The position numbers and the translations under genes are program-made. A DNA stretch of 64,000 bases from Streptomyces roseoverticillatus (GTDB lineage Bacteria; Actinomycetota; Actinomycetes; Streptomycetales; Streptomycetaceae): assembly GCF_000719265.1 (NCBI RefSeq), contig NZ_JOFL01000019.1, positions 186,001 to 250,000 of the forward strand. Reading direction: 5' to 3'. Under the pieces are notes generated by a model. That model was given only the letters and a program-made list of their open reading frames with translations. It had not been told where the DNA came from and made no database searches. Numbering within the stretch: the stretch's first letter is position 1; each line of letters begins with the position of its first letter. This document shows, piece by piece, positions 4,306-38,422 of the stretch.

Positions 4306-5562
4306 CTACTTCGACGCGGCCTTGATCAGCGCGTCCTTGGTGACGGCGCCCGCGTACACCTTGCCGTCGTCCGTGACCAGGACGTTGACCAGGCGGGTGC
4401 TGAAGACGTGGCCCGAGCCGAAGGAGCCCGAGACCTTGCTGCCGAGGCTGTCGAGCAGGGCACCGGCCGGGCCGGCGTCCTTGGCGCCCTTCGCGCCCGC
4501 GCCCGAACCCACGCCGCCGGGCGCCTTGAGCTCGGCGATCGACGTCCAGCCCTTGCCCAGCACGTTCATGCCGGAGAGGTCGGGCGCGCCCGCGTCCTTG
4601 CCCGGGCCGGCCTTGTGCTCCTTGCCGGCCTTGCCGTCCGCCTTGTCCTCGATGACCTTCGCGCCCTTCGGCGGCTTGAAGTCGAAGGTGTCCGCGGCCG
4701 GCTTCCCGAAGCCGACCTTGGTGAACGCCGCGTCCACGACGGCCTTGCCGCCGTTCTTCGGGCTGAGCGTGAACTTCAGCGGCACGCCGTTCTTCGCGTC
4801 CACCGCGATGCGCACCGCGCCGACCGTCGTCTCGGCCGCCTTGGGCTTCAGGACCAGCTGGTAGGCGTCGCGGCCGGCGACCTTGACCGTGCCGTCGACC
4901 GTCACCGACGTGGAGTCGTCGACCGCGGCGAGCGTCTTCTTGGCGAGCTCCTGCGGCGAGGCACCGCGCAGCTCCTGCGGGGCCTCCTTGCCGCCGTGCA
5001 TGCCCTTGGGGGCCGTGGAGCGATGGACGGTGTTGCTCTTGCTGTCGTACGCCCAGACCTGGTCGCCGTTGCGGATCACGCTGTACTCCGCGGCGCGCTC
5101 CACGATCGACAGCCGCTGCTTGTCCGGGCCGTCGGCGGCCACGCGCAGCGTGTGCGTACCGGAGGCGAGCTCGGTGAGCTTGGCCTGCGGGGAGGTGTCC
5201 GCCCCCGCCTCCTTGCCGGCGGAGCCGTGGCCCGCCTTGCCGCCGGCCGGGGCGTCGCCCAGGGAGAGCCCGGACGGCAGCGAGGGCAGGCCCAGGTCGG
5301 TGGTGACCTTGACGGTGCCGGACAGCTGCTGCGTGTCCGACTCCGCCATCTTGGCTATCAGGTCCTGCGCGCTGATCTTCGGAAGATCCGGGTCACCGCT
5401 GCTCGCGAGCGCGGTGCCGATGCCGATCGACGCCGCGGCGACGCCGGCCACCGCGACCGGGACGGCGTAGCGGACGGCCTTGCGGCGGCCGTGCGCCCGC
5501 CGGGTGCCTTCCCCGGCGTCGGGCGCCCCGTCGGTGCCGTGGGTCGGTTCGATGCGTGCCAT
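4306..5562 (-). CDS. LolA-like / DUF2092 membrane-anchored protein
   Basis: I place the start at the ATG at 5562 because GGAGGT lies nine bases upstream; earlier in-frame ATGs (for example 5691) lack a site. The 418-residue product has a charged N-terminus with HGRRK, a membrane segment at about residues 32-52 (AVPVAVAGVAAASIGIGTAL) and an extracytoplasmic domain. The core resembles the LolA/LppX fold of lipoprotein-carrier proteins: a two-part beta sheet with the DLIAKMAESDTQQLSGTVKV start, and QVWAYDSKSNTVHR in the middle. A Gly/Lys/Ala-rich insert is at about residues 115-135. It is probably co-transcribed with the ABC exporter genes. A lipid or lipoprotein handling role is inferred from fold and neighbours only. 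Confidence 0.75.
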   Translation of the reverse strand: MARIEPTHGTDGAPDAGEGTRRAHGRRKAVRYAVPVAVAGVAAASIGIGTALASSGDPDLPKISAQDLIAKMAESDTQQLSGTVKVTTDLGLPSLPSGLSLGDAPAGGKAGHGSAGKEAGADTSPQAKLTELASGTHTLRVAADGPDKQRLSIVERAAEYSVIRNGDQVWAYDSKSNTVHRSTAPKGMHGGKEAPQELRGASPQELAKKTLAAVDDSTSVTVDGTVKVAGRDAYQLVLKPKAAETTVGAVRIAVDAKNGVPLKFTLSPKNGGKAVVDAAFTKVGFGKPAADTFDFKPPKGAKVIEDKADGKAGKEHKAGPGKDAGAPDLSGMNVLGKGWTSIAELKAPGGVGSGAGAKGAKDAGPAGALLDSLGSKVSGSFGSGHVFSTRLVNVLVTDDGKVYAGAVTKDALIKAASK

Positions 5563-5784
5563 GTCCTCTACCTCCGTCGTCGGCGGCGGTCTCGACCTGT
5601 CGTGCACTCGCCACCCCCCACGGCTCATTGTGAGCCCGGCCGCTCTGTGGTGGAGCGGGGAATCCGGAGGAATTCCCCTGCCTCGAGACACTTCGATTCC
5701 ACCAGACCCCGTCTGTCAGGTCATCAGACGACGGGATCAAGTCCGCGTACCTCTTGGGTAGGACATCCCCTACGGGGACACCAA

Positions 5785-5826
5785 CTTTTGGGTGGAGCGG
5801 CCCGGCTTTTGGATGGAGCGGCCCCG
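5785..5826 (+). repeat. 21-bp tandem repeat, two copies
   Basis: Bases 5785-5805 and 5806-5826 are head-to-tail copies differing at two positions; both begin CTTTTGG and contain TGGAGCGGCCC. Function unknown. Confidence 0.8.
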
Positions 5827-5910
5827 ACTGCCGGCGGGGCCGGCCCGGCTTCCGGCCGAAGTACCACGCCGACCGGCCCTGATCCCCGCGGCGAAGCCAC
5901 GGAAAAGATG

Positions 5911-5925
5911 CCCGCCGCCACGGCG
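5911..5925 (+). repeat. Dispersed GC palindrome, copy 1
   Basis: CCCGCCGCCACGGCG is one member of a family that recurs at 7373-7387 (inverted), 7424-7438, 7478-7492, 7596-7610, 48623-48636 (inverted) and 50914-50928. The core CGCCGNNRCGGCG is an imperfect palindrome able to fold. All copies lie between genes or in the non-homologous tail of the flavoprotein gene. Confidence 0.7.
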
Positions 5926-5997
5926 CCCGGCCCCCACGGCGAGGGCCCGGCGGAATACAAGGCGGCCGGAACCACCACGCACGGCACAAGCCCGGCG

Positions 5998-7008
5998 CTA
6001 GCCCGCCCGGTGGACCACCGCGTCGCAGAGGTTCTCCAGGGCGGCCTTCGCGTAGCAGTCCGGCAGCGGGGCCAGCGTGGCCCGCGCCTCCTCCGCGTAC
6101 CGCACGGTGTCGCGTCGGGCCTGCTCCAGCGCGGGGTGGGCGCGCAGCCGGCGCAGCACCTCGGCGTGGAGGGCGTCGTCGGTGAGGTCGCCGTCGAGCA
6201 TCTCGCACAGTTCGAGGTCGGCGGCCGAGCCGGTCGCGGCGGCCTGGGCGCGCAGGTGCAGGACCGGCAGGGTGGCGATGCCCTCGCGCAGGTCGGTGCC
6301 GGGCGTCTTGCCGGACTCGTGGGAGTCGCTGGCGATGTCGAGGACGTCGTCGGCGAGCTGGAAGGCGATGCCGAGGCGCTCCCCGTAGTGGGTGAGGATG
6401 TCGACCGTGCGCTCGTCGGCGCCGGACATCATCGCGCCGTACCGCCCGGAGACGGCGACCAGCGAGCCGGTCTTGCCGGCGAGGACGTCCAGGTAGTGCT
6501 CGATGGGGTCGCGGCCGTCGCGGGGGCCCGCGGTCTCCAGGATCTGGCCGGTGACCAGCCGCTCGAAGGCCTCGGCCTGGATGCGGACGGCCTCGGGGCC
6601 GAGGTCGGCCAGTATGTGCGAGGCGCGGGCGAAGAGGAAGTCGCCGGTGAGGACCGCCACGGAGTTGCCCCAGCGGGCGTTGGCGCTGTCGACGCCGCGC
6701 CGCTTCTCGGCCTCGTCCATGACGTCGTCGTGGTACAGCGTGGCCAGGTGCGTGAGCTCGACGACGACGGCGGACGGCACGACGCCGGGGGTGTAGGGGT
6801 CACCGAACTGGGCGGCGAGCATCACCAGGAGTGGCCGGAAACGCTTCCCCCCGGCGCGCACGAGGTGCTGCGCGGCCTCGGTGATGAAGGGCACGTCGCT
6901 CTTGGTGGCCTCCAGGAGGCCCTCCTCGACAGCGGCCAGTCCCGCCTGGACATCGGCTTCAAGAGCCTGGTCCCGCACGCTCAGCCCGAAAGGCCCGACG
7001 ACGGTCAC
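5998..7008 (-). CDS. Long-chain polyprenyl diphosphate synthase
   Basis: This 336-residue trans-prenyltransferase condenses isopentenyl diphosphate onto an allylic primer to build the menaquinone side chain. Signatures are GGKRFRP at residues 53-59, the first Asp-rich motif DDVMD at 94-98, GKTGSL near 178-183 and the second Asp-rich motif DDVLD at 220-224. The residue five before the first motif is small (A89, in LATLYHDD), as expected for enzymes making long chains. Streptomyces menaquinones usually carry nine isoprene units, so a nonaprenyl product is likely, but chain length cannot be read with certainty. The gene stands alone, transcribed from the spacer above 7008. Confidence 0.92.
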   Translation of the reverse strand: MTVVGPFGLSVRDQALEADVQAGLAAVEEGLLEATKSDVPFITEAAQHLVRAGGKRFRPLLVMLAAQFGDPYTPGVVPSAVVVELTHLATLYHDDVMDEAEKRRGVDSANARWGNSVAVLTGDFLFARASHILADLGPEAVRIQAEAFERLVTGQILETAGPRDGRDPIEHYLDVLAGKTGSLVAVSGRYGAMMSGADERTVDILTHYGERLGIAFQLADDVLDIASDSHESGKTPGTDLREGIATLPVLHLRAQAAATGSAADLELCEMLDGDLTDDALHAEVLRRLRAHPALEQARRDTVRYAEEARATLAPLPDCYAKAALENLCDAVVHRAG

Positions 7009-32296: not shown

Positions 32297-32869
32297 TCAC
32301 CCGAAGGACGGACCGTTCCTCCGCCGGAAGGTACGCCACCCGGCGATCCGCCGTAAGCGCCACAGCGCACGGATGCGCCGCGGGTCGGCGGGCGACGCGA
32401 GCACGCCCACGCAGTCGGCGAGTTCGTGCACCGGACGCTGGATGGGCAGCGCGAGGTAGACGCTCGTGGCTCGTCGGCGGCCGTCCCACATGCGGGAAAC
32501 GCCGGTGTAGAGCGCCATCCGACGGATGATCTCCAGCCGGGGCGCGGCGGCGAGGTCCCTCGGCGTCAAGTGGTACAGGTTGCGCGAAGGGCCGTCGCTG
32601 TCCTCGATCACGAAGGCCACGTACGTACGGTGCAGGCGGACAGTCACGGTGACCGTCGGGTGCCCGGGGGTCTCGGCGAGGACGTAGGCGATGGCGTCGG
32701 ATACACAGACGCGCGCGTCCTCGATCACTGCGGGGTGAGCGCGCAGGATCGCTTGCAAAGCGTCGCGTGCGACCCGGATCGCCGTTTCGGTGGCCGGCAC
32801 GGCGATGCGGTAGAGCTCACCCTGGTCGTCCGTTGTGGTGCGGGGACTGCTGAGCATGGCTGTACGCAT
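32297..32869 (-). CDS. ATP-binding protein, HATPase_c anti-sigma-like
   Basis: I use ATG 32869, preceded by GGGAG; the frame is open further upstream but without support. The 190-residue protein has the GHKL kinase pattern of RsbW/SpoIIAB-type proteins: N-box ARVCVSDAIAYVLAETPGHPTVTV, where the usual Asn is replaced by Asp/Ala (SDAIAY), then a G1-like region VAFVIEDSDGPS and LEIIRRMALYTGV in place of the G2 loop. The N-box Asn and some Gly residues are not canonical, so ATP binding is uncertain. In Streptomyces such proteins often stand beside an XRE regulator and a DUF397 protein, as here (divergent to 33113). Confidence 0.75.
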   Translation of the reverse strand: MRTAMLSSPRTTTDDQGELYRIAVPATETAIRVARDALQAILRAHPAVIEDARVCVSDAIAYVLAETPGHPTVTVTVRLHRTYVAFVIEDSDGPSRNLYHLTPRDLAAAPRLEIIRRMALYTGVSRMWDGRRRATSVYLALPIQRPVHELADCVGVLASPADPRRIRALWRLRRIAGWRTFRRRNGPSFG

Positions 32870-33112
32870 GGGGCGTCTCCCATCGGTTGTAGCCGCGCAC
32901 CTCACGCCGTCCGTGGCTCGGCCGCCCCCCGGAGTGCCCGTCAACAGGCATGCAGGCGGCTGCACTTCGGGTCTTCCCGACGCGCTGCGCGGTGCTGTCA
33001 GGACCATAGGGCCCACCTGTGGGACGGCGCAACAGTGGTACGCCGGGCCCAAGAGTTGGGAGCGTGGCACAGTAGGCGGCACACTCGGACCGACGAGGGA
33101 GAGGGAGGGGCG

Positions 33113-33970
33113 ATGCCGCCGAGGAGTTACCCAACCGCGCGGCAGCGGCGACTTGGGGCTGAGCTGCGCAAGCTGCGCGAAAAGGCGGGCATGTCCGGCA
33201 GCAAGGTCGCCGCTTTTCTGGGCGGTGAGCGTGCGCAGGTGAGCCACATCGAATCCGGCCGATACGGCATCAGCGCGGAGAGAGTCCGACGTTTGGCTGC
33301 CTACTACTCCGCAGCAGACAAACACCTCATTGACGCACTCGCAGCCATGGCGGATGAGCGCAGTAAGGGTTGGTGGGAGGAGTACCGGGGGATACTGTCG
33401 CCGGGATTCCTTTACCTGTCTGAGCTTGAGCACCACGCAACGTACCTGCGGGACGTGCAGATGCTGCACATCCCGGGAATCTTCCAGACCGCCGAGTACG
33501 CGCGCGAGGTGATGTCGAATAGCATCTCTTCAATGCCCGCTCTGCCTGCAGCCGAGCTTAACGCCAGGGTTGCGCATCGACTGAGGCGTCGAGAAATCTT
33601 CGACAGGCCGGCGCCGCCGAAGTTTGAGGCGTTCATCCACGAGGCTGCACTGCGCATGCGCTACTGCGAGCCTGAGACCATGCGGGAACAGCTGGACTTC
33701 CTGAGCGACATGTCGGATTTCCCGACCGCCACGGTTCGCGTGATCCCGTTCGAGAAGCGGATCACCAGCTCGGTTCATTCACTGCTGTACACAGGCGGGC
33801 CGATTCCACAGCTCGACACGGTGCAGATCGATAGCGCGTTTGCTGCCGGGTTCCTGGACGCAGAGGCTCAGCTGTCACGCTACCGAGCCCTGTTGAATTC
33901 CGTGGCGGATATAGCGCTCGACCCCGACGAATCGAGCAAGTTCATCCGACGCATCACAAAGGAACTGTGA
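33113..33970 (+). CDS. XRE-family regulator with DUF5753 domain
   Basis: The 285-residue protein starts at ATG 33113 behind GAGGGAGGGG. The helix-turn-helix is at about residues 10-65 (LGAELRKLREKAGMSGSKVAAFLGGERAQVSHIESGR). A DUF5753 domain follows from about residue 95 to the end (FLYLSELEHHATYLRDVQMLHIPGIFQTAEYAREVM and TVRVIPFEKRITSSVHSL). These proteins pair with small DUF397 proteins; the BldB/WhiJ families are studied relatives. Base composition is visibly less GC-rich than the core genes, suggesting acquisition. The DUF397 gene starts ten bases after its stop. Confidence 0.92.
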   Translation: MPPRSYPTARQRRLGAELRKLREKAGMSGSKVAAFLGGERAQVSHIESGRYGISAERVRRLAAYYSAADKHLIDALAAMADERSKGWWEEYRGILSPGFLYLSELEHHATYLRDVQMLHIPGIFQTAEYAREVMSNSISSMPALPAAELNARVAHRLRRREIFDRPAPPKFEAFIHEAALRMRYCEPETMREQLDFLSDMSDFPTATVRVIPFEKRITSSVHSLLYTGGPIPQLDTVQIDSAFAAGFLDAEAQLSRYRALLNSVADIALDPDESSKFIRRITKEL

Positions 33971-33980
33971 GCGAAGAATT

Positions 33981-34181
33981 ATGACCGGCGAACTCATATG
34001 GCAGAAGTCCTCATTCTCTGGTGGGGATAATAACCAATCCTGCGTCGAAGTCGCGCACGCTTCCCACTTGATCGCGATCAGGGAAAGCGACATCCCGAAC
34101 GACATCATCATGACGACCGCGGCACACCTCCGCTCGCTGATCAGAGGCGTCAAGTCAGGTCGCCTCGATGACCTGATCTAG
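33981..34181 (+). CDS. DUF397 domain protein
   Basis: A 66-residue protein with the DUF397 frame: WQKSSFSGGDNNQSCVEVA at the start, IAIRESDIPN in the middle and a final helix LRSLIRGVKSGRLDDL. DUF397 proteins partner or antagonise the XRE regulator encoded directly upstream. Codon use is AT-richer than average here (AATAACCAATCC). A T-tailed terminator ends the pair. Confidence 0.92.
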   Translation: MTGELIWQKSSFSGGDNNQSCVEVAHASHLIAIRESDIPNDIIMTTAAHLRSLIRGVKSGRLDDLI

Positions 34182-34199
34182 CGATCAGCCACGGCGCAC

Positions 34200-34229
34200 G
34201 CCCCCCATCGATGCAGGTGGGGGGCTTTT
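34200..34229 (+). terminator. Intrinsic terminator after DUF397 gene
   Basis: GCCCCCCA (34200-34207) pairs with TGGGGGGC (34218-34225) and TTTT follows, a classical rho-independent terminator. Confidence 0.9.
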
Positions 34230-34263
34230 GGCATATGCGGGCCCAACGTAGGGACTTGAACCT

Positions 34264-34291
34264 CAAGGGTCGGACTCCTGCCCCACCCTTG
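34264..34291 (+). other. Inverted repeat upstream of the NUDIX/radical SAM genes
   Basis: CAAGGGT (34264-34270) and ACCCTTG (34285-34291) form a perfect 7-bp inverted repeat around a 14-base centre. It could be an operator for the nearby XRE regulator or an RNA hairpin. Confidence 0.4.
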
Positions 34292-34377
34292 CACCCGGCG
34301 AGATGGCAGCGCTACGTTCTGCCCTGCACCACCGCGCCGGGCGAATGACAGGCGAGACCGCGTCCGGCGGACGATGT

Positions 34378-34410
34378 AACTCCCGTACTACACCGGAGCG
34401 TTCGGGAGTT
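34378..34410 (+). promoter_or_regulatory. Stem-loop ahead of the degenerate NUDIX gene
   Basis: AACTCCCG (34378-34385) pairs with CGGGAGTT (34403-34410) across 17 bases that include TACTAC, a possible -10. It lies 29 bp before the ATG at 34439, so it may be an operator or a leader hairpin. Sequence evidence only. Confidence 0.45.
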
Positions 34411-34438
34411 CCCCCCACGCGAGGAGCGCACAGACCTC

Positions 34439-34939
34439 ATGGCACAGGGATTCGGGCAGATCTCGACACGGCGACTCGTTGGACTGGCGCTGGTCACCAA
34501 TGCAACGGGGCAGCTGCTCATGGTGAATCGCCCCACCGGAGCGCTCGAACTGCCCGGTGGCGAAGCGATCCTGGAAGAGCCCGCAGTGCGGTCGGCCGCT
34601 TACCATCTGCGCCGCCTCGGCCTGGCCAAGCAGCCCGGCCCCATTCTGGCCGTCGACCACATGGAAGCGCTCCCCCTCGGCGTCGCCGGAGACACTCTGA
34701 CCGTGGTCTTTCACTGCGGCACACTGACCCCCGCCGAGGTCAGCTCTCTCAACGACGTCACGCTGCCCGACGACGTGAAGTCCTGCGCGTTCGTAGACCC
34801 GACGTACTTTCATCCGGGCATTGCCCGCTACCACCGGAGATGTCTCGAGGCTGCCGTCTCCAGCCTCAACTGCGGCACCGGCACGCCCTACCTCCGTAAC
34901 GGACTCCGGATCAACGCGCAGCTTCCCGTACTGACCTGA
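34439..34939 (+). CDS. NUDIX-like protein with degenerate NUDIX box
   Basis: The 166-residue protein starts at ATG 34439, with GAGGAG about 13 bases upstream. Residues 10-65 follow the NUDIX fold opening (STRRLVGLALVTNATGQLLMVNRPTGALELPGG). The box that should read REUXEE is AYHLRR at about residues 54-59, so the metal-binding glutamates are missing. Hydrolase activity is therefore unlikely and the protein may bind a nucleotide-like ligand or act as a partner. The later part is plain alpha/beta (LTVVFHCGTLTPAEVSSLND, CAFVDPTYFHPGIARYHRR). It heads a set with a radical SAM protein 101 bp downstream and a methyltransferase. Confidence 0.75.
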   Translation: MAQGFGQISTRRLVGLALVTNATGQLLMVNRPTGALELPGGEAILEEPAVRSAAYHLRRLGLAKQPGPILAVDHMEALPLGVAGDTLTVVFHCGTLTPAEVSSLNDVTLPDDVKSCAFVDPTYFHPGIARYHRRCLEAAVSSLNCGTGTPYLRNGLRINAQLPVLT

Positions 34940-35040
34940 TCTTCTCCGCACCGGGCGGTCGCGGGGGACCGCCTGGAGGCACGTCCCACCACACCCAGCC
35001 GAGCCATCAGGGCGGGCCATCAGCCGCAGGAGGCACATCA

Positions 35041-35934
35041 ATGCCCTCCGTCATGCAGGCACCATCTCCCACCGTCTCCGTTGTCCAGTCGGTCGAGTGC
35101 GAGCTCACCGAGGTCTGCAACTTGCGTTGCGGTCACTACTGCACCCTCTCCGGCCCCACCATGTCGCACGGCTCGATGACCCTCGCCGACTGGCAGCGCG
35201 TCGTCGACGACATCGACGCCCTCGGCATCCCGACCGTGCAGTTCATCGGCGGTGAGCCGACGCGATCCCCCCACCTGCCCACCCTGATCAAGTACGCCCT
35301 CGACCGCCGCCTCGCCGTCGAGGTGTACTCGAACCTCACCCACATCCGACCCGGCCTTTGGAAGCTGTTCACCCGCAAGGGCGTCCACCTGGCCACGTCG
35401 TACTACAGCGACAATCCGGCCGAGCACGACAAGATCACAGAGTCCCCCGGAAGCCACGCGCGCACCCGCGCCAACATCGTCAAGGCACTCGAACTCGGCA
35501 TCCCGCTACGGGCCGGCCTGGTCGAAATCCTCGACGGCCAACGTGTCCAGCAGGCCGAGGCCGAACTGCGCGCCCTCGGCGTGAAGCACACCCGCATCGA
35601 CCACGTCCGCAAAGTCGGCCGCGCCGCGACCCCGGACACGCCCACACCGGCCATGAGCGAGCTGTGCGGCCGGTGCTTCCGCCAACGCGCCGCGATCTCG
35701 CCCGACGGGTACGTGTACGGCTGCATCCTGTCGCGCCACCTTGTCGCCGGCAACGTGAAGTCCGGCGGACTCGCGAAGGTGCTCACCGGCCCTGAGTGGG
35801 CAGAGATCACTGAAAGTGTGCCCATCCGGCGCAACGCCTGCACCCCGGACGACAGCGGCGATTGCGACCCCGCCAACACCGAGGCATGCCTGCCGGGTTT
35901 CCCCGGTGGCGACGACGACGGCGACGGCTCATAG
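35041..35934 (+). CDS. Radical SAM protein with unusual CX3CX3C motif and SPASM-like tail
   Basis: The 297-residue protein starts at ATG 35041 behind AGGAGG. Residues 18-36 carry the expected cluster site but read CNLRCGHYC (C26, C30, C34), spacing CX3CX3C instead of CX3CX2C. The codons are TAC TGC where relatives would have TGC TAC. FIGGEPT (GGEP at 70-73) is the SAM-binding motif, and the rest of the barrel looks intact. C209, C212, C228, C267, C275 and C283 form a SPASM-like auxiliary cluster region (CGRC, GYVYGC). SPASM proteins usually modify peptides or protein side chains. The methyltransferase gene follows 12 bp later. The substrate is not evident and no precursor peptide gene was found. 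Confidence 0.85.
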   Translation: MPSVMQAPSPTVSVVQSVECELTEVCNLRCGHYCTLSGPTMSHGSMTLADWQRVVDDIDALGIPTVQFIGGEPTRSPHLPTLIKYALDRRLAVEVYSNLTHIRPGLWKLFTRKGVHLATSYYSDNPAEHDKITESPGSHARTRANIVKALELGIPLRAGLVEILDGQRVQQAEAELRALGVKHTRIDHVRKVGRAATPDTPTPAMSELCGRCFRQRAAISPDGYVYGCILSRHLVAGNVKSGGLAKVLTGPEWAEITESVPIRRNACTPDDSGDCDPANTEACLPGFPGGDDDGDGS

Positions 35935-35946
35935 GAGACGGACCGA

Positions 35947-37074
35947 ATGAACTGGGAACCACGCGCCGCGGCACTCGCCGAGCGCGTCACCCACCGCTCA
36001 TCACGGTGGCGCGCTCCTGTGGCGCGGACGCCCCGGCATCAGCTCGCACCACGGTGGTGGGAGCGCAGCCCCGACGGCTGGACGCTTCGAGACGGGCCCT
36101 CGGATGAGGCGCGATGGCTCGACGCCGCATACAGCGACAAGACCATCGTGACCCGGGTGAGCGGGCTGCACGCCGACCGCGCCGCCACTGACGACCGCCC
36201 GGCCGGCCTGCCGACGTCGTCCTCGACCCTGCCGAGCCTGAACGTCAGCATGCTTCAGCACGCCAGGCTCGGCGACGGCGACACCCTCGGGCACATCGGC
36301 ACCGGCCCCGGCTACGCCGACGCCCTCGCCTGTCACCGCCTCGGGGACAGACAGGTCACCACCGTGGACGTCGACCCGTACCTCGCCGAAGCCGCGCGCG
36401 CACGCCTCGATGAGATGGGGCTGCACCCCACCGTCGTGAGCATGGACGCAACCGGCTGTCTGCCCGACATGTTCGACCGGATCGTCGCTACGGTCGCCGT
36501 CCGGCCGATCCCCGCGAGCTGGCTCGCCGCGCTGAACCCCGGCGGCCGGCTGGTGACCACGATCGCCGGAACATCACTCCTGATCACCGCTGAAAAAAAC
36601 GACGAGGGCGGGGCGACAGGGCGCGTCGAGTGGGACCGGGCCGGCTTCATGCACACCCGCCACGGCGCCGACTATCCGCCACGCCTCGCCGCCCTGCTCG
36701 CCACTGCCCGCGAGCATGACGGCGACGCGATCGGCACCGGTCGTTACCCGGTCGTTCATGTGACCGAAGCATGGGATCTGGCGTCGATGCTGGACATCAT
36801 GGTCCCCGGCATCGAGCACGAATACAGTGAGGACGACGAACAGCGCGTCGCCGTCATGGCGCATGCCGACGGGTCATGGGCACGAGCGACCGCTCGCACC
36901 GACGAGCCCCCCAGGGTCCATCAGGGCGGCCCGCGCCGTCTGTGGGACGCCCTCGACGACATCCGTACGTACTGGCTCACCAACGGCGAACTGCCCGTGC
37001 GCGGAGCCAGGGTCTACGTCAAGCCCGACGGCTCGACGTACCTCGCCCGGGGGAAGTGGCGCGCCAAGCTGTAG
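35947..37074 (+). CDS. PIMT-like SAM-dependent methyltransferase
   Basis: The 375-residue protein starts at ATG 35947 after AGGAG. Residues 90-230 resemble protein-L-isoaspartate O-methyltransferase: SSSTLPSLNVSMLQ (substrate loop), LGHIGTGPGYADALAC (SAM motif I, about 114-129), TTVDVDPYLAEAARARL (motif II) and FDRIVATVAVRPIPASWLAALNPGGRLV (motifs III/IV). About 90 N-terminal and 140 C-terminal residues are extra; the latter end GARVYVKPDGSTYLARGKWRAKL. PIMT-like enzymes with such additions occur in RiPP maturation clusters, so with the radical SAM neighbour a modified peptide is possible, but that is inference. Confidence 0.85.
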   Translation: MNWEPRAAALAERVTHRSSRWRAPVARTPRHQLAPRWWERSPDGWTLRDGPSDEARWLDAAYSDKTIVTRVSGLHADRAATDDRPAGLPTSSSTLPSLNVSMLQHARLGDGDTLGHIGTGPGYADALACHRLGDRQVTTVDVDPYLAEAARARLDEMGLHPTVVSMDATGCLPDMFDRIVATVAVRPIPASWLAALNPGGRLVTTIAGTSLLITAEKNDEGGATGRVEWDRAGFMHTRHGADYPPRLAALLATAREHDGDAIGTGRYPVVHVTEAWDLASMLDIMVPGIEHEYSEDDEQRVAVMAHADGSWARATARTDEPPRVHQGGPRRLWDALDDIRTYWLTNGELPVRGARVYVKPDGSTYLARGKWRAKL

Positions 37075-37144
37075 TGCGCCGGGCCCCGAGGCCCCGGGCA
37101 CCCGCTGCGGAGCGGACGACCGGGGCCTACTGTCGCTTCAATCG

Positions 37145-38422
37145 TCACGCCTTCGGCGCGACCCGGCTCAGCCCGTTGATGATGCGGTCCATCGCGTCGC
37201 CGCCCGTGGGGTCCGTGAGGTTCGCCAGCATCTTCAGGGTGAACTTCATCAGCAGCGGGTGCGTCAGGCCGTGCTGGGCGCCGATCTTCATGACCTTCGG
37301 GTTGCCGATGAGCTTCACGAACGCCCTGCCGAGCGTGTAGTAGCCGCCGTAGGTGTCCTTGAGGACCTTCGGGTAGCGCTGCAGGGCCAGCTCGCGCTGC
37401 GCGTACGAGGCGCGCGCGTGCGCCTGCACGATGACGTCCGCGGCGATCTGCCCGGACTCCATGGCGTACGCGATGCCCTCGCCGTTGAACGGGTTCACGA
37501 GCCCGCCCGCGTCGCCGACCAGCAGCAGGCCGCGCGTGTAGTGCGGCTGGCGGTTGAAGGCCATGGGGAGGGCGGCGCCGCGGATCGGGCCGGTCATGTT
37601 CTCCGGGGTGTAGCCCCAGTCCTCGGGCATCGAGGCGCACCAGGCCTTGAGGACCTCGCGCCAGTCCAGCTCCTTGAAGGACTCGGAGGTGTTGAGGACG
37701 CCGAGGCCGACGTTGCTCGTGCCGTCGCCCATGCCGAAGATCCAGCCGTAGCCGGGCAGCAGCCGGTCCTTCGGGCCGCGCCGGTCCCACAGCTCCAGCC
37801 AGGACTCCAGGTAGTCGTCCTCGTGGCGCGGGGAGGTGAAGTACGTCCGCACGGCGACGCCCATCGGGCGGTCCTCGCGGCGGTGCAGGCCCATGCCCAG
37901 CGACAGCCGGGAGGAGTTGCCGTCCGCGGCGACGACGAGCGGGGCGCGGAAGGTGACCGGGGTCTTCTCCTCGCCGAGCTTCGCCTCGACGCCCACGATG
38001 CGGCCCGTGCGGTCGTCGATGACGGGGGCGCCCACGTTGCAGCGCTCGTACATCCGGGCGCCGGCCTTCACCGCGTTGCGGGCCAGCTGCTCGTCGAAGT
38101 CGTCGCGCTTGCGGACCAGTCCGTAGTCCGGGAAGGACGCGAGGTCCGGCCAGTCGAGCTGCAGCCGGACGCCGCCGCCGATGATGCGCAGGCCCTTGTT
38201 GCGCAGCCAGCCCGCCTCCTCGGAGATGTCGATGCCCATCGACACGAGCTGCTTGGTGGCGCGCGGGGTCAGGCCGTCGCCGCACACCTTCTCGCGCGGG
38301 AACGCCGTCTTCTCCAGCAGGAGGACGTCCAGTCCGGCCTTGGCGAGGTAGTACGCGGTGGTCGACCCGGCCGGGCCGGCCCCGACGACGATCACATCCG
38401 CGGAGTGTTCGGTATCGGTCAC
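37145..38422 (-). CDS. Geranylgeranyl reductase family FAD protein
   Basis: A 425-residue flavoprotein with the N-terminal FAD loop VGAGPAGSTTAYYLAKAG, FPREKVCGDGLTPRA (family active-site cysteine region), VVAADGNSSRLS, and GLLLVGDAGGLVNPFNGEGIAYAMESG near residue 300. The family reduces isoprenoid double bonds. In actinobacteria members act on the menaquinone side chain (MenJ) or on glycerolipid isoprenoids. Its place beside the MenG-type methyltransferase and mqnC favours partial saturation of menaquinone. Start is GTG 38422. Confidence 0.88.
   Translation of the reverse strand: MTDTEHSADVIVVGAGPAGSTTAYYLAKAGLDVLLLEKTAFPREKVCGDGLTPRATKQLVSMGIDISEEAGWLRNKGLRIIGGGVRLQLDWPDLASFPDYGLVRKRDDFDEQLARNAVKAGARMYERCNVGAPVIDDRTGRIVGVEAKLGEEKTPVTFRAPLVVAADGNSSRLSLGMGLHRREDRPMGVAVRTYFTSPRHEDDYLESWLELWDRRGPKDRLLPGYGWIFGMGDGTSNVGLGVLNTSESFKELDWREVLKAWCASMPEDWGYTPENMTGPIRGAALPMAFNRQPHYTRGLLLVGDAGGLVNPFNGEGIAYAMESGQIAADVIVQAHARASYAQRELALQRYPKVLKDTYGGYYTLGRAFVKLIGNPKVMKIGAQHGLTHPLLMKFTLKMLANLTDPTGGDAMDRIINGLSRVAPKA

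Follow-up and report, generated by a model that had tools for sequence, protein, structure and literature searches.

In a 64,000-nucleotide stretch of Streptomyces roseoverticillatus DNA (hereafter the window), a gene encoding a radical S-adenosylmethionine (rSAM) protein is followed by a gene encoding a PIMT-like methyltransferase (MT), and we found that these two genes are the conserved unit of their locus. The rSAM protein (35041..35934, plus strand, 297 aa) carries a partial SPASM (twitch-like) domain and a C-terminal tail rich in Cys, Pro and Asp; the MT (35947..37074, plus strand, 375 aa) is of the PAMT type, with a PIMT domain, a C-terminal domain and likeness to TIGR04188. We hypothesized that the pair is a two-enzyme module whose substrate is the rSAM protein's own C-terminal tail, a reading to which we give slightly less than an even chance. 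An earlier, sequence-only reading of the window had singled out the locus as its best candidate for an undescribed system. The rSAM-PAMT pair is, however, already in print as an unsolved pair, with 249 such clusters reported to have no neighbouring precursor or substrate (PMC10787088, in its account of these clusters). What is new here is a conserved, apparently unfolded Cys-Pro-Asp tail as the best candidate for the missing target; the sequence-only reading had not mentioned this tail, which we regard as the likeliest precursor.

Comparison of related loci revealed that the two genes recur together. They were adjacent in 49 of the 88 rSAM-family loci that we collected (a union of several searches rather than a random sample, with L013 set as MT-positive by hand because of gene overlap). 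The MT gene lay downstream at all 20 nearest places (L066-L085) in 199 Streptomyces genomes, once with a transposase-like gene in between, and the pair was present in 11 of an initial 13 loci from plasmids and phage, the exceptions being a Mycobacterium prophage (L007) and an Amycolatopsis plasmid (L008). The genes upstream of the pair vary and include HATPase, XRE/DUF397, nuclease, phosphotransferase, dehydrogenase and other genes. A fixed third partner on that side was rejected: among 119 upstream proteins scanned, the commonest matches were HATPase_c_2 (9) and HTH_31 (8), while NUDIX accounted for 1. Because the MT recurs beside the rSAM gene and the upstream genes vary, the conserved unit is the rSAM-MT pair, as the sequence-only reading had supposed in grouping these two enzymes. 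The rSAM family was found in 41 of 199 genomes of the genus (E 1e-40), in 36 of 245 genomes of the order, 35 of them within the genus (E 1e-30), and in 3 of 296 genomes of the phylum, all within the genus and one of them the window's own.

The rSAM tail is both highly conserved and apparently unfolded. Protein lists comprised the best 120 of 723 rSAM matches and the best 120 of 1427 MT matches. We aligned 85 of the best 120 rSAM proteins with the window copy (86 rows), leaving out fragments and near-copies; the 35 left out included P0083 and P0102 (which lack a full tail core), and P0086, P0089, P0106 and P0108, which lack a full cluster motif, also stood outside the alignment. In the window, the tail that follows the last helix (H251-259 in the AlphaFold2 model) reads NACTPDDSGDCDPANTEACLPGFPGGDDDGDGS, and its core (CTPDDSGDCDPANTEACLP, residues 267-285; 35839..35895, plus strand) is the proposed fused substrate, with D271 as the proposed methylation site. 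Residues 267-287 reached 3.61 bits per column and ranked first in conservation among seven chosen segments (rSAM core, 3.14; auxiliary region, 3.48; stretch after the tail core, 0.56), and C267, D271, C275 and C283 were present in 85 of 85 aligned homologues. Residues 266-297 were predicted with a pLDDT (AlphaFold2's per-residue confidence) below 50 (~36 in the tail core), compared with at least 90 for 192 of the 297 residues. A tail that is highly conserved yet unfolded is what is expected of a substrate or a binding motif. Among the best 120 rSAM proteins listed, three (P0018, P0050 and P0094) carry two full tail copies in tandem; tandem cores are familiar from multi-core precursors of ribosomally synthesized and post-translationally modified peptides (RiPPs) and would be odd for cluster ligands. 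Homologues from Paraburkholderia and Rhizobium (38 and 34% identical, respectively) also end in CxP tails, and no MT gene was seen beside them.

Two types of tail each went with a particular type of partner gene. For tail counts, tails missed by the search pattern were taken from the last residues, and L073 and L122 were excluded; the tree and the CxP counts rest on 81 of the 88 rows (L052, L072, L073, L081, L121, L122 and L123 are missing). At least two CxP motifs were present in 44 of 44 MT-positive tails and in 35 of 37 MT-negative tails. An Asp followed by Gly, Ser or Thr occurred in 48 of 49 MT-positive tails, the only one without it being L052, whose sequence looks frameshifted, and in 17 of 37 MT-negative tails, and the fuller motif D[SGT]x(1-2)CxP was found in 39 of 49 MT-positive loci. 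Two large MT-less groups carry other CxP tail types that match other partner genes; we drew up these groups, K (15 loci) and Q (12 loci), by hand. A kinase-type tail ending was present in 14 of the 15 loci whose partner is kinase-like and in none of the 12 Q or 49 MT-positive loci. That partner, of ~265-290 aa, resembles APH weakly, and the kinase label is itself weak, since Pfam APH matched 3 of 29 such proteins. The Q motif was present in all 12 Q loci, in ten of which a partner gene for a 106-116 aa protein was seen, and in none of the 15 kinase-type or 49 MT-positive loci. Ten MT-less loci fit neither group (L007, L008, L054, L057, L061, L101, L107, L111, L112 and L141). In the tree, a single branch (support 69/67) separated the MT-positive rows from the others. 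The genome from which the window comes encodes another rSAM of this family (L056; G000:C26:70490-71251), with a CTPPQFLPSCGPCGPCVPTVGHCDP tail and a 116-aa partner gene.

An alternative is that the pair matures an unlinked precursor peptide, with the tail serving in docking or recognition. In its favour, many rSAM maturases have a separate precursor as their substrate. The precursors of imiditides, moreover, often go unannotated (PMC13001092). Our scans argue against this alternative, and we consider it improbable. A scan for small open reading frames (ORFs; 18-220 aa, within ~3.5 kb on the upstream side and 2.5 kb on the downstream side of the pair; families had to occur in at least three loci) gave no precursor-like family common to three or more MT-positive loci. 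The families listed were DUF397 proteins, ATPases, a transposase and other or antisense frames, and we rejected a separate adjacent precursor on this basis. A six-frame scan of L001-L100 and the window for a three-CxP motif, in which many rSAM frames bore the label OTHER, returned rSAM frames, an rSAM fragment behind a transposase gene in L073 and one other match in L082. A split arrangement of rSAM and tail was also rejected, because its sole candidate, L073, reads as an rSAM gene cut by a transposase-like gene. The sequence-only reading had likewise seen no precursor gene.

The main rival to the tail as substrate is that the tail belongs to the enzyme itself, with cysteines that ligate a second iron-sulphur cluster, standing in for the missing second half of the SPASM domain, or another metal, and that the substrate lies elsewhere. 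C267, C275 and C283 equal the cluster cysteines in invariance (85/85), the tail starts just after the last helix, and in twitch domains such as that of BtrN further cysteines after a helix do ligate a cluster; the CGPCGPC found in most Q-type tails would also suit ligands. Against this, AlphaFold2 folds the SPASM-like region at high confidence and does not fold the tail, the number of Cys per tail ranges from 0 to 10 (81 tails), and the full core is doubled in the three tandem homologues. Moreover, the auxiliary-cluster cysteines C209, C212 and C228 (CX2CX15C; 35665..35724, plus strand), present in 85 of 85 aligned homologues, form a set that is complete without the tail, with a spacing that resembles the three-cysteine cluster of MoaA. 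We consider a ligand role unlikely, though a serious contender.

The preferred explanation, that the pair acts on the rSAM protein's own tail, would work as follows. The Cys-rich CxP tail would be modified by the rSAM domain, either that of its own chain or that of another copy of the protein; the analogy with SkfB makes a thioether formed from Cys the likeliest chemistry. Methylation of a tail Asp (D271 in D-S-x-D-C) by the PAMT would follow, leading to an aspartimide or isoaspartate; such Asp sites suit aspartimide chemistry. Sister groups retain the rSAM and tail but have other partners (chiefly the weakly APH-like protein or the 106-116 aa protein) and their own tail types. What we observe is the adjacency of the two genes, the conservation and predicted disorder of the tail, its doubling in a few homologues and the pairing of two tail types with two kinds of partner; we infer the modification of the tail, the enzyme responsible, the chemistry and any release. 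Two further observations count in favour of this proposal: neither the 249 published clusters nor our own scan yielded a precursor, and the solved folds nearest to the rSAM protein are the peptide maturases SkfB (21% identity) and SuiB (15%). SuiB works on a separate precursor peptide (in the SuiB-SuiA complex), unlike the proposed fused tail, and SkfB reportedly does so too. In our proposal the peptide core and its maturase would instead share one chain, an arrangement like that of borosins, whose cores are described as fused to their methyltransferase (PMC7878506); the proposed logic of a core at the enzyme C-terminus is the same, the enzyme, chemistry and organisms differ, and we claim no homology. 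For the tail Asp sites, the TxDGC and DTAD motifs given in PMC10787088 offer a comparison. Among the papers listed in our searches of open-licence PubMed Central literature, we recognized none that describes such an rSAM tail.

Several points weigh against a fused substrate. Many RiPP cores are variable, but this tail shows conservation within the MT clade; its invariant cysteines suit metal ligands too. P0083 and P0102 show that two of the best 120 rSAM proteins listed do without a full tail core, and a Mycobacterium abscessus prophage rSAM (L007:2071-2862) has neither a Cys tail nor an adjacent MT. Of the 49 MT-positive loci, 10 do not have D[SGT]x(1-2)CxP, and the motif does occur in L008 and in 3 of the 15 kinase-type loci. 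L062 and L138 were assigned to Q by their tails and no partner gene was seen beside them. Because the MT-positive rows form one group, the match between tail and partner arose mostly by descent and does not represent independent events. Very short or divergent precursors would escape our small-ORF scan, and a 28-aa hydrophobic ORF lies directly upstream of the rSAM gene in L011 and L083, below the three-loci bar. No protease or exporter stood out among 25 of 54 upstream-gene families, a check of the upstream side only. Published RiPP PIMTs carry an extra C-terminal domain with WXXXGXP (PMC13001092); the motif near the C-terminus of this MT family is WXXXGXXP, one residue longer, and was found in 118 of the best 120 MT proteins listed, including the window's, whereas WXXXGXP was found in none. 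Finally, the substrate proposal itself is drawn from sequence comparison and predicted structure.

The pair can be set beside several known systems. As far as its description goes, the cluster type of PMC10787088 is the same as ours, with adjacent rSAM and PAMT genes, a C-terminal domain on the latter and no precursor gene; that account names no substrate, whereas we propose the rSAM tail, and the NUDIX gene upstream in the window is a local addition. That cluster type is defined by an rSAM gene adjacent to a PAMT of more than 300 aa (here a 12 bp gap and an MT of 375 aa) and by no neighbouring precursor gene, which is what our small-ORF scan found within its range. The MT matches Pfam PCMT and aligns over nearly the whole of TIGR04188 (model positions 2-362 of 363), the methyltransferase of the graspetide (ATP-grasp peptide maturase) systems. 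Its score of 272 bits is below the curated cut-off of 380, which marks it as related to but not a member of that family, and unlike in TIGR04188 systems no ATP-grasp gene was found beside the window MT. TIGR04188 methyltransferases are among the genes common in ATP-grasp loci, as listed in part of PMC8939145, and PIMT-like enzymes in RiPPs have been reviewed (PMC13001092), the sections consulted containing no rSAM-PAMT pair. The peptide maturation that the sequence-only reading had invoked was the right comparison, in the form of RiPP chemistry. On one Streptomyces plasmid, a tgmA/tgmB graspetide pair (L009:1-1200 and 4989-6991) lies ~4 kb from an rSAM-MT pair.

The window copy of the rSAM may itself be impaired. 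Its place in the radical SAM superfamily is not in doubt because the fold and the Pfam match (Radical_SAM plus a partial SPASM, profile positions 2-55 of 67) are clear; its activity is in doubt. The codon for residue 33 (35137..35139, plus strand) encodes Tyr in place of the third cluster cysteine, which is Cys in 85 of 85 aligned homologues, so that the noncanonical motif noted by the sequence-only reading is real in this copy but stems from a substitution seen in none of them. We considered it possible, though somewhat short of probable, that the locus is a decaying, inactive remnant, an explanation compatible with any of the others. Besides the lost cysteine, a one-base difference shifts the NUDIX frame in Streptomyces klenkii, the nearest named genome that we found, and ratios of nonsynonymous to synonymous change (dN/dS) between the window and S. 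klenkii, calculated from few changes, were 0.50 for the rSAM and 0.64 for the NUDIX gene (first 124 codons). On the other hand, none of the three frames is interrupted in the window, and the corresponding ratios, also from few changes, were 0.21 for the MT, 0.36 for the ArsR-like neighbour and 0 for the reductase. In addition, Tyr 33 is followed directly by Cys, which gives CNLRCGHYC, a CX3CX3C rather than a CX3CX2C motif. CX3CX3C occurs in 18 other MT-positive loci (including L004, L009, L011, L076 and L083; for example CQLTCASHC and CQLTCPSLC), although in those an extra residue is inserted and the usual spacing to the following GP is kept, whereas the window spacing differs. The S. klenkii rSAM retains the third cluster Cys. 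These comparisons suggest that the cassette may be decaying in this strain, which for the window copy counts against a working module, and that the system may be on its way out of this lineage, with the methyltransferase the last to go. A role in anti-phage defence was rejected: the only defence matches were to pVip and were weak (best E 5e-10), and we took them as general rSAM likeness.

The NUDIX-like gene (34439..34939, plus strand, 166 aa) lies outside the conserved pair. The sequence-only reading had joined it to the rSAM and MT genes in a three-gene set and had suggested looking for all three together in other genomes. Among 54 loci around rSAM relatives, on plasmids, in one prophage or in Streptomyces genomes, the window's NUDIX stood beside the rSAM in two, L003 and L066, both S. 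klenkii and thus one organism twice. We accordingly rejected a three-gene system, and we take the NUDIX as a local accessory, incidental to the working unit. Its description as a degenerate NUDIX held in part. REXXEE is the core motif of the Nudix box, and the corresponding region (LPGGEAILEEPAVRSAAYHLRRLGL) lacks it, and with it a box bearing the catalytic glutamates. The fold comes from a low-confidence AlphaFold2 model (pLDDT 65.7) whose best Foldseek matches are MutT/NUDIX proteins (best E 2.5e-7), and no Pfam or NCBIfam match was found up to E 1. In the protein database it has 6 relatives, not counting itself, and by eye, a weak check, their genomes match none in the best-120 rSAM and MT lists. 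Distant relatives (~28-46% identity) occur in 13 of 61 related genomes, the window's own counted; in G031 such a relative is ~3 kb away from a family rSAM that has no MT. NUDIX genes other than the window's are also found upstream of the rSAM in L101 (~0.7 kb) and L104 (~3 kb), and further ones at L078:3387-3851 and L015:10110-10559; at least some have an intact-looking Nudix box, and they lie near rSAMs both with and without an MT. NUDIX genes may therefore recur as loose neighbours of the rSAM family.

The setting of the cassette looks acquired. Its three ORFs share one strand, with gaps of 101 bp (NUDIX to rSAM) and 12 bp (rSAM to MT), exactly as the sequence-only reading had given them. 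Upstream lie an XRE-family regulator (33116..33970, plus strand; HTH_31 and DUF5753) and a small DUF397 protein (33981..34181, plus strand), both confirmed by family matches. The divergent GHKL-like ATPase of that reading (32297..32869, minus strand) is weakly HATPase_c_2-like at a level below the cut-off (E 0.026). The XRE/DUF397 part has a GC content of 0.58-0.64, compared with 0.70-0.76 to its left, and the flanking genes are indeed a geranylgeranyl reductase (TIGR02032) and UbiE. The cassette was absent from the interval between the reductase and NlpC genes in all five relatives fetched (of 24 with the reductase), four of which have other genes there and one of which is empty. In G246 the rSAM-MT pair sits at a different place without a NUDIX, beside an XRE gene and, by our reading of the sequence, DUF397-like and ATPase-like ORFs. 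The absence of the cassette from this interval in relatives and the presence of the pair elsewhere in G246 support acquisition, in line with the insertion first proposed; overall, the sequence-only observation was borne out in part and its interpretation partly supported. XRE-DUF397 and the adjoining spacer (33010-34310) differ strongly from S. klenkii (46 and 44% protein identity), whereas the DNA on either side shares 93-95% identity, a pattern that a replacement of the regulatory pair would produce. Such pairs regulate antibiotic production in Streptomyces coelicolor, according to parts of PMC6262351 and PMC10364602. The window contains no tRNA and positions 32600-37300 no Rfam match at gathering score, and we rejected a tRNA or RNA element in the 34.2-34.4 kb gap.

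Taken more broadly, the pair may belong to a Streptomyces-centred rSAM family whose members bear a peptide core as their C-terminus and modify it, and which recruits a different second enzyme for each type of core, be it a PAMT, a kinase-like protein or a small protein. To our knowledge there is no earlier fused-core radical SAM RiPP family, and this one would be the first and would answer the missing precursor of rSAM-PAMT clusters; we hold this broader claim to be possible but on balance doubtful. If the rSAM tail is the substrate, the open substrate question of the 249 rSAM-PAMT clusters would become testable with two genes in Escherichia coli, and the search for precursors would shift to the inside of the maturase gene. 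Fused-core logic would be added to the radical SAM maturases, and the sister groups with kinase-like and small-protein partners would be open to the same test.

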